A DNA stretch of 64,000 nucleotides, from the NCBI GenBank assembly GCA_020850535.1, contig JADZEM010000021.1:1-64000 (forward strand). Direction: 5' to 3'. The position numbers and the translations under genes are program-made. Below are positions 4,913 to 31,038 of this stretch, piece by piece. The notes beneath the pieces are model-generated. The model was not told the DNA's origin, did no database searches, and saw nothing but the letters and a program-made list of their open reading frames with translations. Numbering within the stretch: position 1 is the stretch's first letter; every line of letters starts with the position of its first letter. Source of the DNA: Chloroflexota bacterium (GTDB taxonomy: Bacteria > Chloroflexota > UBA6077 > JACCZL01).

Positions 4913-5129
4913 CCCAGGGCGATTGCATGTTCATTGGTGTACCCGGAGCATCATGGAACGGGCGGTCGGGGACTGAAGTCCCCGCCTACCGTCACGCCGT
5001 CGCTGCGCGACGGCCGTCGGGAACGGCCGGCACTGGTGCGACTGGAGCGTCGCGCAGCAACTGCAGGATGGTAGGCGGGGCTTTCAAGCCCCGACGCGGC
5101 GGCACGACGACATCAACATGCGATTGCTC
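4913..5129. repeat. Large palindromic repeat, copy 1
   Basis: This copy begins cccagggcgattgcatg and ends near catgcgattgct, which are inverted. Inside are two perfect hairpins: CGGGGACT-GA-AGTCCCCG at 4967-4984 and CGGGGCTT-TC-AAGCCCCG at 5076-5093. Their flanks (cgcctacc and ggtaggcg) are also mutually inverted, so the whole element folds as a long imperfect stem. The centre carries a further pair around gtcgctgcgcgac and cgtcgcgcagc. It encodes nothing recognisable and resembles a REP/BIME or MITE-like element. Confidence 0.8.
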
Positions 5130-5141
5130 CGGTTCGTGACT

Positions 5142-5360
5142 CAGGGCGATTGCATGTTCATCGGTGTACCCGAAACATCATGGAACGGGCGGTCGGGGAC
5201 TGAAGTCCCCGCGTACACTCATTCAGTCGCTGCGCGACGGACACCGGGAACGGCAAGCACTGGTGCGACCGGCGCGTCGCGCAGCGACTGCAGGATGGTA
5301 GGCGGGGCTTTCAAGCCCCGACGCCGCTGCACGACGACATCAGCATGCGATCGCCCTGGG
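5142..5360. repeat. Large palindromic repeat, copy 2
   Basis: This is a direct, slightly diverged copy of the element at 4913-5129, in the same order: terminal agggcgattgcatgttcat, the GGGGACT/AGTCCCC hairpin, a GTCGCTGCGCGAC arm, a gcaggatggtaggcgggg block, the GGGGCTT/AAGCCCC hairpin and an inverted end (catgcgatcgccctggg, 5344-5360). The central arms cagtcgctgcgcgacg (5224-5239) and cgtcgcgcagcgactg (5275-5290) are perfect inverted repeats, more exact than in copy 1. The outermost ends of the two-copy array, 4913-4929 and 5344-5360, are 17-bp inverted repeats with one mismatch. Copy 2 ends 33 bp before the Fur-family gene. Confidence 0.8.
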
Positions 5361-29271: not shown

Positions 29272-29299
29272 GATATATCCGCCACGGATATAGTGTCAA
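29272..29299 (-). promoter_or_regulatory. PadR promoter with embedded palindromic operator
   Basis: On the minus strand a -35 TTGACA (29299-29294) and a -10 TATATC (29277-29272) are 16 bp apart. Between and over the -10 lies TATATCC-GCCAC-GGATATA (29274-29292), a perfect 7-bp inverted repeat, the likely binding site of the PadR dimer. Transcription would begin near 29265, about 2 nt from the ATG at 29263, giving a leaderless message. The promoter overlaps the last codons of the upstream methyltransferase gene. Confidence 0.75.
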
Positions 29300-29868
29300 G
29301 AGCCGGGAGCGCGGCACCAGACCACGATGTTGCGCCGCACCAGCCGCTTCTCGGTGATGCGGAACACCCGCTCGATGCGGGCGAGCCGGTCGTAGAGGCG
29401 GCGCTCGTAGAACAGGTTGAACACGGCCACGCCGCGCGGCCCCAGGAGCGTCTTCAGCCTCCTCAGGAACGGCCGTCCGACGACCCCGTGTGCCATCACG
29501 TTGCCACGATACAGATCGACGGCCACGTAGTCGGCATGCTCGCCGCGAGCGACCGCCTCGGCCAGGTAGGCGAAGGCGTCTGCCTCGACGATCTCCAGGC
29601 CAGAGACCTCGCGCAGCAGTTCGGCGGCGAACACGACGACGCCGGGGTCATTGTCGACGCCGATGATGGTGACGCCGGGGAACCTGGCGTCCAGCAGCCG
29701 CGCGATGGTGCCGGCCCCGAGGCCCAGCAGCACGGCGCGGTCGGGCCGGACATCCGGCACCATCCGACGCCAGTAGCCCTCGGGGTCGTCATCCAGGACC
29801 GATTGGACGGTCCCGTCCACCAGCAGGACGGGCCGCCCATCGTCTTCGCCAAGGCGGACCTCAGTCAA
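29296..29868 (-). CDS. Spermidine-synthase-like methyltransferase
   Basis: The 190-residue protein has a spermidine-synthase/SAM-methyltransferase core: AVLLGLGAGTIARLLDARFP, TIIGVDNDPGVVVFA and EIVEADAFAYL, with DYVAVDLYRG later. It lacks the N-terminal beta domain and the full polyamine site, so it is probably not a true SpeE. The start is unusual: the best frame begins with TTG at 29868, inside a 16-bp tandem repeat whose previous unit supplies a GAGG ribosome-binding site. Stops in that frame upstream (TGA in the next unit) rule out a longer protein. Its function is unknown. Confidence 0.7.
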   Translation of the reverse strand: MTEVRLGEDDGRPVLLVDGTVQSVLDDDPEGYWRRMVPDVRPDRAVLLGLGAGTIARLLDARFPGVTIIGVDNDPGVVVFAAELLREVSGLEIVEADAFAYLAEAVARGEHADYVAVDLYRGNVMAHGVVGRPFLRRLKTLLGPRGVAVFNLFYERRLYDRLARIERVFRITEKRLVRRNIVVWCRAPGS

Positions 29869-29936
29869 GGCGGACCTCAGTCAAGGCGGACCTCAGTCAA
29901 GGCGGACCTCAGTCAAGGCGGACCTCAGTCAAGGCG
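29851..29936. repeat. 16-bp tandem repeat covering a start codon (VNTR)
   Basis: Five perfect units aaggcggacctcagtc at 29851, 29867, 29883, 29899 and 29915, plus a partial sixth to 29936. On the minus strand each unit reads TTGACTGAGGTCCGCC, that is a TTG codon, a GAGG and a second spacing to the next TTG. The unit length is not a multiple of three, so a change in copy number alters the frame of anything read through it. It lies between the Ldh-family gene and the methyltransferase gene. Confidence 0.9.
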
Positions 29937-29958
29937 CTGCCTCGGCGTTCGCCAACGC

Positions 29959-31038
29959 CTACTCGACGGCCACCGGCGTCGGGAGCGGCACGCCTACCTC
30001 GGAGGCCAGCTCCGTCAGACGGCCCACGACTTCCTTGTGGTACGGAATGCCGTCCTTCGTGCGCTGCTGCTCGATGGTGACCTCGCGCTCGCCGTGTACC
30101 AGCACGCCCAGCGACCCTTCGGCCGGCTCGGTGGCCTTGAGGTAGGCGACCAGTCGATCCATGATCGCCTTGAAGTTCTCCACCGAGCCGAAGTGCTCGA
30201 TGGCCAGCGCGCCCTGGAAGTGGCAGGTGCCGCCCGAGCGACCGTCACGCAGCTCGCCGATGTGGCCCGCGCCCGAGAGCACGCCGGCCAGCACGTCGAT
30301 CATTACCGAGAGGCCGTACCCCTTGTAGCCGCCGGTCGACGGCCCGCCCCCCAGCGGCAGAATCGCGCCGCCCTTCCACCAGTCATTCGGATCGTTGGTG
30401 TCGTTGCCCTTGGCGTCGACGATCCAGCCGGTGGGGATCTGCTGCTCCTTCATCCTCGCCAGCTCGAGCTTGCCGGCCGCCACGACGCTGGTGGCGATAT
30501 CGAGAATGAACGGCATCGCGGCGCCAGCCGGGGCAGCGACGCTCATCGGATTGATGCCGACCCGCCGGCCGCGCCCGCCCGTCGCCACGACGCCGAGGCC
30601 GCCGACCGTCATCGAGAAGCCGATCATGTTGTGCGGCAGCGCCATCTGGCTGTAGTGCGATGATGCGCCGTAGTGGTTGCTGCCGCGAATCGAGACGAAG
30701 CCTGCGCCCGTCTCCTTCGCCTTGGCAATCGCCAGATCCATCGCGACGGTGCTGGCGACCGGGCCGAGGCCGTTCTGCCCGTCGATGACGGCCGTCGAGG
30801 CCGCCTCGTGCACGATCTCGGGCTGGGCCCTACCGTCGATAGCGCCGCTCTTGAGGCCGCCGGCGTAGCTGGCGACCGTCACCCGGTTCAGTCCATGCGA
30901 GTCGATGCCCATCAGGTCGGCGTGGATCAGCGCGTCGGTCGTCATCCTGGCATCGTCGGCCGAGGTGCCCAGCTTCTGGAAGACAGCGCTCGTCCACTGC
31001 TTGATCTCGGTCGCGTCGAACCGCGAGTAGTCAGCCAT
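29959..31038 (-). CDS. Malate/L-lactate dehydrogenase-family (Ldh/YlbC-type) oxidoreductase
   Basis: The 359-residue protein fits the NAD(P)-dependent Ldh/YlbC fold (PF02615): GIDSHGLNRVTVASYAGGLK, VSIRGSNHYGASSHYSQMAL with the catalytic-type SNHYG, GINPMSVAAPAG and DIATSVVAAGKLE, plus GPSTGGYKGYGLSVMIDVLAG near the C-terminus. Members reduce 2-oxo acids such as oxaloacetate, sulfopyruvate or delta1-piperideine-2-carboxylate; the substrate cannot be told. It is divergent from the amidase gene, with 225 bp between the two starts. Confidence 0.92.
   Translation of the reverse strand: MADYSRFDATEIKQWTSAVFQKLGTSADDARMTTDALIHADLMGIDSHGLNRVTVASYAGGLKSGAIDGRAQPEIVHEAASTAVIDGQNGLGPVASTVAMDLAIAKAKETGAGFVSIRGSNHYGASSHYSQMALPHNMIGFSMTVGGLGVVATGGRGRRVGINPMSVAAPAGAAMPFILDIATSVVAAGKLELARMKEQQIPTGWIVDAKGNDTNDPNDWWKGGAILPLGGGPSTGGYKGYGLSVMIDVLAGVLSGAGHIGELRDGRSGGTCHFQGALAIEHFGSVENFKAIMDRLVAYLKATEPAEGSLGVLVHGEREVTIEQQRTKDGIPYHKEVVGRLTELASEVGVPLPTPVAVE

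Follow-up and report, generated by a model that had tools for sequence, protein, structure and literature searches.

A perfect 16-bp tandem array at the start codon of a spermidine-synthase-like gene, probably a tolerated minisatellite made by slippage

The window (the whole stretch of DNA that was analyzed, 64,000 nucleotides of a Chloroflexota contig) carries a tandem repeat that begins between an Ldh_2 gene and a gene for a short SAM-fold protein and runs into the start of the latter. The features of the locus, in the direction of reading, are as follows.

29959 to 31038, minus strand: Ldh_2 gene (malate/L-lactate dehydrogenase family; Pfam PF02615), upstream and co-directional
29940 to 29943, minus strand: GAGG preceding the array in the sequence, with 7 nt between it and the TTG of the first unit; a candidate for the ancestral Shine-Dalgarno sequence
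29929 to 29955, minus strand: possible mini-ORF MANAEAAP-stop, in the Ldh_2 frame just past its TAG; its TGA overlaps the first TTG (TTGA, −4)
29850 to 29936, minus strand: tandem array of TTGACTGAGGTCCGCC, five perfect copies (29853 to 29932) plus a 7-nt partial copy, from TRF and exact identity
29930 to 29936, minus strand: direct repeat CGCCTTG at the upstream edge of the array (other copy at 29850 to 29856)
29861 to 29932, minus strand: four overlapping mini-ORFs, MTEVRLD-stop (29932 to 29909, 29916 to 29893, 29900 to 29877, and 29884 to 29861), from sequence and simulation
29875 to 29878, minus strand: Shine-Dalgarno-like GAGG of the fourth unit, 6 nt before TTG 29868
29861 to 29868, minus strand: TTGACTGA junction, in which the 7-aa mini-ORF of the previous unit ends over the real start (−8 spacing, NTGNNTGA)
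29296 to 29868, minus strand: 190-aa SAM-fold gene (spermidine-synthase-like/Methyltransf_12) opening at the TTG with which the last unit begins, a start placed by orthologue alignment

TRF located the array at window positions 29850 to 29936 with a period of 16, 5.4 copies, 100% matches, and no indels. Read on the minus strand, positions 29932 to 29853 are exactly TTGACTGAGGTCCGCC × 5, flanked by CGCC and TTG (87 nt in total). Five perfect copies of a 16-mer cannot have arisen by chance. The unit is absent from the rest of the 7.65-Mb, 227-contig assembly save for one place with one mismatch, and a dispersed mobile repeat was rejected because the unit is unique in the genome. The 16-bp array reported in the initial annotation is thus real, and with head-to-tail units in the range of about 10 to 60 bp (16 bp × 5.4, 100% identity), it has the unit structure of minisatellites or variable-number tandem repeat (VNTR) loci. 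The draft genome is fragmented (227 contigs, with 4.58% contamination), and assembly can collapse or expand short repeats, which might make the copy number an artifact. We consider this hardly probable at all: the 87-nt array fits within an ordinary short read, and intact genes flank it on both sides within a 76-kb contig.

The ORF opening at TTG 29868 encodes 190 aa, and relatives of it were found in 36 of the 61 genomes searched (its own included); those from the family's two other genomes show 53 to 58% identity. The sequence at the start is TTG ACT GAG GTC CGC CTT GGC GAA GAC here, TTG CCC GAG GTA CGC TGG GGC GAG GAC in genome G002, ATG CCT GAG GTC CGC ATC GGC GAA GAT in G003, and CTG GTC GAG ATT CGG TTC GGC GAG GAC in G001, where CTG is the likely start because an in-frame stop sits just upstream. 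The orthologues therefore begin with ATG or TTG, or probably with CTG, and continue as x-E-V/I-R; their start codons fall in the same column as TTG 29868. This exact alignment bears out the earlier choice of TTG 29868 and places the gene start inside the array, in its last unit. An in-frame TGA occurs 15 nt upstream, within the previous unit, and none of the other in-frame starts preserves the conserved N terminus. A true start beyond the array, which would have overturned that choice, was checked and rejected: the next start in frame is a GTG located 29 nt beyond the array, and its use would cost the protein the conserved segment V-R-x-G-E-D-D-G-R. No such repeat was present at the gene start in any of the 19 relatives read.

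The initial annotation called the product a methyltransferase, which is a loose label. The protein scored 53 bits against PRK04457 (cut-off, 304), 20.6 against MFS_SpdSyn (cut-off, 40), and 24.3 against Pfam Methyltransf_12 (cut-off, 30), and by curated model score, it does not qualify as a polyamine aminopropyltransferase (spermidine synthase). Weak sequence matches were seen to solved METTL13 and aminopropyltransferase chains, and a search across genome contigs returned only two matches, both in distant Clostridia. By these scores, the product is a short SAM-fold protein whose nearest models, below their cut-offs, are those of the polyamine aminopropyltransferases (spermidine synthases), and "spermidine-synthase-like protein" is the fairer label. 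On the far side of the gene, an inverted repeat, ATATCCG-CCA-CGGATAT (29275 to 29291), separates it from a PadR-family gene and is a candidate PadR operator.

The repeat unit, TTG ACT GAG GTC CGC C, is identical to the first five codons of the gene plus one base, and because the start codons align codon by codon with those of the relatives, it represents duplicated coding sequence. As the initial annotation had claimed, a GAGG stands 6 nt ahead of each next unit's TTG. Its bases belong to the gene's conserved Glu-Val codons, at which the relatives have GAG GTC, GAG GTA, or GAG ATT, so that the motif seems to have come to sit upstream of the start through the duplication. Ribosomes would presumably use it (the 16S sequence in the assembly is a fragment covering model positions 9 to 873, with the 3′ end missing). 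Since another GAGG is found 7 nt before the first unit, an ancestor with one copy would already have had a comparable site. The unit is bounded by two copies of a 7-bp direct repeat, CGCCTTG, spaced 16 bp apart; such a pair would have flanked a single ancestral unit and, being the kind of substrate on which slippage usually acts, could have seeded it.

We simulated arrays of different lengths. All arrays of 1 to 8 units gave an identical 190-aa product from the last unit, and with zero units, the gene was left without a start. Each extra unit yielded a 7-aa MTEVRLD-stop whose TGA lies within TTGACTGA and overlaps the next TTG by 8 nt. Two frames of every unit contain a TGA, and the remaining one runs into a TGA in the following unit; with stops in all frames, there is no read-through of the array. 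The proposal that changes in copy number shift the frame of a read-through product consequently falls, as there is no such product, while its companion, that the nearest unit always restores the start, holds for any copy number of at least one, with the frame kept. Frame-based phase variation, also suggested earlier, is excluded by this anatomy: no OFF state exists at any copy number from 1 to 8. Simple-sequence contingency loci likewise have, at a gene's 5′ end, a repeat with a unit length not divisible by 3. Unlike in those loci, the start here travels with the array, so that a change in copy number cannot put the product out of frame. Nor does the array behave as a contingency locus by on/off switching, as the same ORF is open at 1 to 8 copies and no promoter-like site is present.

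The resemblance of TTGACT to a −35 box had raised the idea of a variable number of promoters. A consensus scan found no sigma-70-like site at the array, and no −10-like hexamer can be fitted inside the unit after TTGACT, so that the idea finds no support. A promoter array was rejected on the same scan, with GAGGTC/AGGTCC occupying the −10 position. The remaining routes by which copy number might tune or phase-vary expression are leader length, mRNA structure, and the number of mini-ORFs. Instability is expected of a perfect tandem array located at a start, and the predicted leader structure does differ between one copy and more: opening the mRNA around the start is predicted to cost about 19 kcal/mol for a single unit and 12.5 to 14.3 kcal/mol for two to ten. 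Past two copies, there is almost no trend, and this near-flat accessibility from 2 to 10 copies speaks against control by copy number, as do the facts that no copy number of at least one alters the frame or removes the start and that no promoter-like site was found. In addition, the product and its neighbors are metabolic enzymes, not the surface or modification genes that are usually phase variable. Altogether, we regard control of expression by copy number as very unlikely; tuning of the expression level alone is conceivable at most.

The distance from Ldh_2 to the start is 90 nt, of which the four extra units account for 64 nt and the sequence before the array for 26 nt. Both other genomes of the family also have Ldh_2 next to this gene, with 3 and 1 nt between the two, and lack the repeat. 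The Ldh_2 frame stays open for 9 codons beyond its TAG (29929 to 29961) and ends in the TGA over the first repeat's TTG. This open frame suggests that the 26 nt may be an insertion or the TAG a premature stop of recent origin. A scan found no intrinsic terminator between Ldh_2 and the array; GGCGTT-GGCG-AACGCC can form a short hairpin (GGCGTTGGCGAACGCC, 29944 to 29959) that overlaps the Ldh_2 stop and has no T run.

This arrangement raises the question of a translational relay, in which ribosomes finishing Ldh_2 might start again at the first TTG and move from one mini-ORF to the next, so that the downstream gene stays coupled across the widened gap at any copy number, by analogy with MIRUs. 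MIRUs have been proposed to insert at start codons and to contain small ORFs whose stops overlap the next start, with minimal effect on the gene expected, and coupled or overlapping gene pairs are enriched in overlaps of the −8 and −4 classes (PMC12548453). Every internal junction of the array is TTGACTGA, of the enriched NTGNNTGA (−8) class, and the Ldh_2 frame past the TAG ends in TTGA (−4) at the first unit. The short spacing of the two genes in relatives (1 to 3 nt) and the position of the start within a stable predicted structure would also fit. On the other hand, the actual Ldh_2 TAG precedes the first unit by 26 nt, the junction geometry is already set by what a single duplicated unit contains and needs no selection to appear, and with its own GAGG at each junction, independent initiation suffices. 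A relay, though anatomically possible, is unlikely.

Among known systems, the array is most readily placed beside bacterial minisatellites and VNTR loci, with which it has in common perfect short tandem units, a flanking short direct repeat, and an array-rich genome, although here the unit spans the start codon and restores the start in every copy. MIRUs are alike in being repeats at a start codon with a small ORF (here MTEVRLD-stop, −8) whose stop overlaps the downstream start. They differ in being dispersed and apparently mobile, with −4 overlaps, whereas this repeat has 16 bp, is unique in the genome, derives from the gene, and gives −8 overlaps; a dispersed mobile repeat would occupy several loci, and we found one array and a single one-mismatch place elsewhere. 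The TAACTGA heptamer arrays of Beggiatoaceae, Cyanobacteria, and Bacteroidetes, for which a translational role has been proposed, are stop rich and lie just upstream of starts (PMC4679880). They too are short stop-rich direct repeats at gene starts, but one heptamer recurs at many loci with the start outside the repeat, while here there is one locus with the start inside the unit. Our search of the available literature for repeats that carry both a ribosome-binding site and a start codon returned no direct precedent beyond these two reports.

The reading that we favor, with a probability of about 70%, is that the array is a slippage-made minisatellite of the gene's first codons, tolerated because its unit is self-starting. 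Slipped-strand expansion, seeded by the CGCCTTG repeat, would have multiplied a segment made of the five initial codons and one further base. Each duplicated piece would bring along a start codon and also, since GAG GTC happens to encode Glu-Val, a GAGG well spaced before the next start, and the expansion would be tolerated because of these two elements. The last unit would then always open the full 190-aa frame, and extra units would add only a 5′ leader of 7-aa mini-ORFs. The copy number should thus not turn the gene on or off and probably has a modest effect on its level. We infer both the slippage origin and the neutrality of the array; neutral expansion, which the initial annotation had offered as an alternative, fits best. 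Three points weigh against this reading. The copies are identical, meaning that the array is either recent or kept homogeneous, possibly by selection; the neat chain of −8-spaced start/stop overlaps would suit a function; and the predicted mRNA structure would hide the start, at an opening cost of about 13 kcal/mol against about 19 for one copy, such that extra copies could help somewhat. If the favored reading is right, an unstable repeat can occupy the start of a gene harmlessly as long as its unit includes a start codon and a ribosome-binding-like motif, and a repeat at a 5′ end should not automatically be taken for phase variation.

We also surveyed tandem arrays in a 1.73-Mb sample of the genome that included the window, counting those with 2.4 copies or more. 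The sample contained 198 distinct arrays; 38 had a period of 10 or more together with 4 or more copies, and 27 were period-7 arrays with at least 4 copies. Arrays are therefore common in this genome, and both this abundance and the second start-bearing array, at lipB, count in favor of the reading given above. Gene calls for the survey came from a home-made hexamer score, and the counts by location are approximate: arrays with a period not divisible by 3 lay mostly outside genes, with 45 intergenic, 19 at gene edges, and 13 within called genes, and roughly 12 arrays touched called starts, most of them upstream of a better start. The start was forced into the array in only two cases, the one in the window and one at lipB.

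L048 (G000:C6) 147 to 213: CCCATGA × 9.6 at the start of lipB (identified by NCBIfam PRK14345, above its cut-off)

The sole ATG possible before the conserved WLLDLGRVEY of lipB is the penultimate ATG of this array, and in relatives, conservation mostly begins at about query residues 6 to 15. In sequence, the array ATGACCCATGACCCATGA produces 5-aa mini-ORFs with ATGA (−4) overlaps, a chain similar to that in the window, which counts in favor of a relay. It is conceivable, though distinctly unlikely, that self-starting minisatellites such as these two are length-tolerant ribosome relays that make expansion cost free and perhaps steady translation. Were this the case, they would offer a small system, simple to test, in which ribosomes re-initiate from one chained mini-ORF to the next.

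The heptamer arrays are often related in sequence (CCCACGA, CCCATGA, CGACCCA, and the like), and some lie at contig ends. A short ACTGATGACTGA-type repeat (L095, 11904 to 11939) directly precedes the GGAG and ATG of an NAD-epimerase-like gene. In the window itself, positions 4915 to 5351 hold a 227-bp tandem duplication (1.9 copies, 90% matches).
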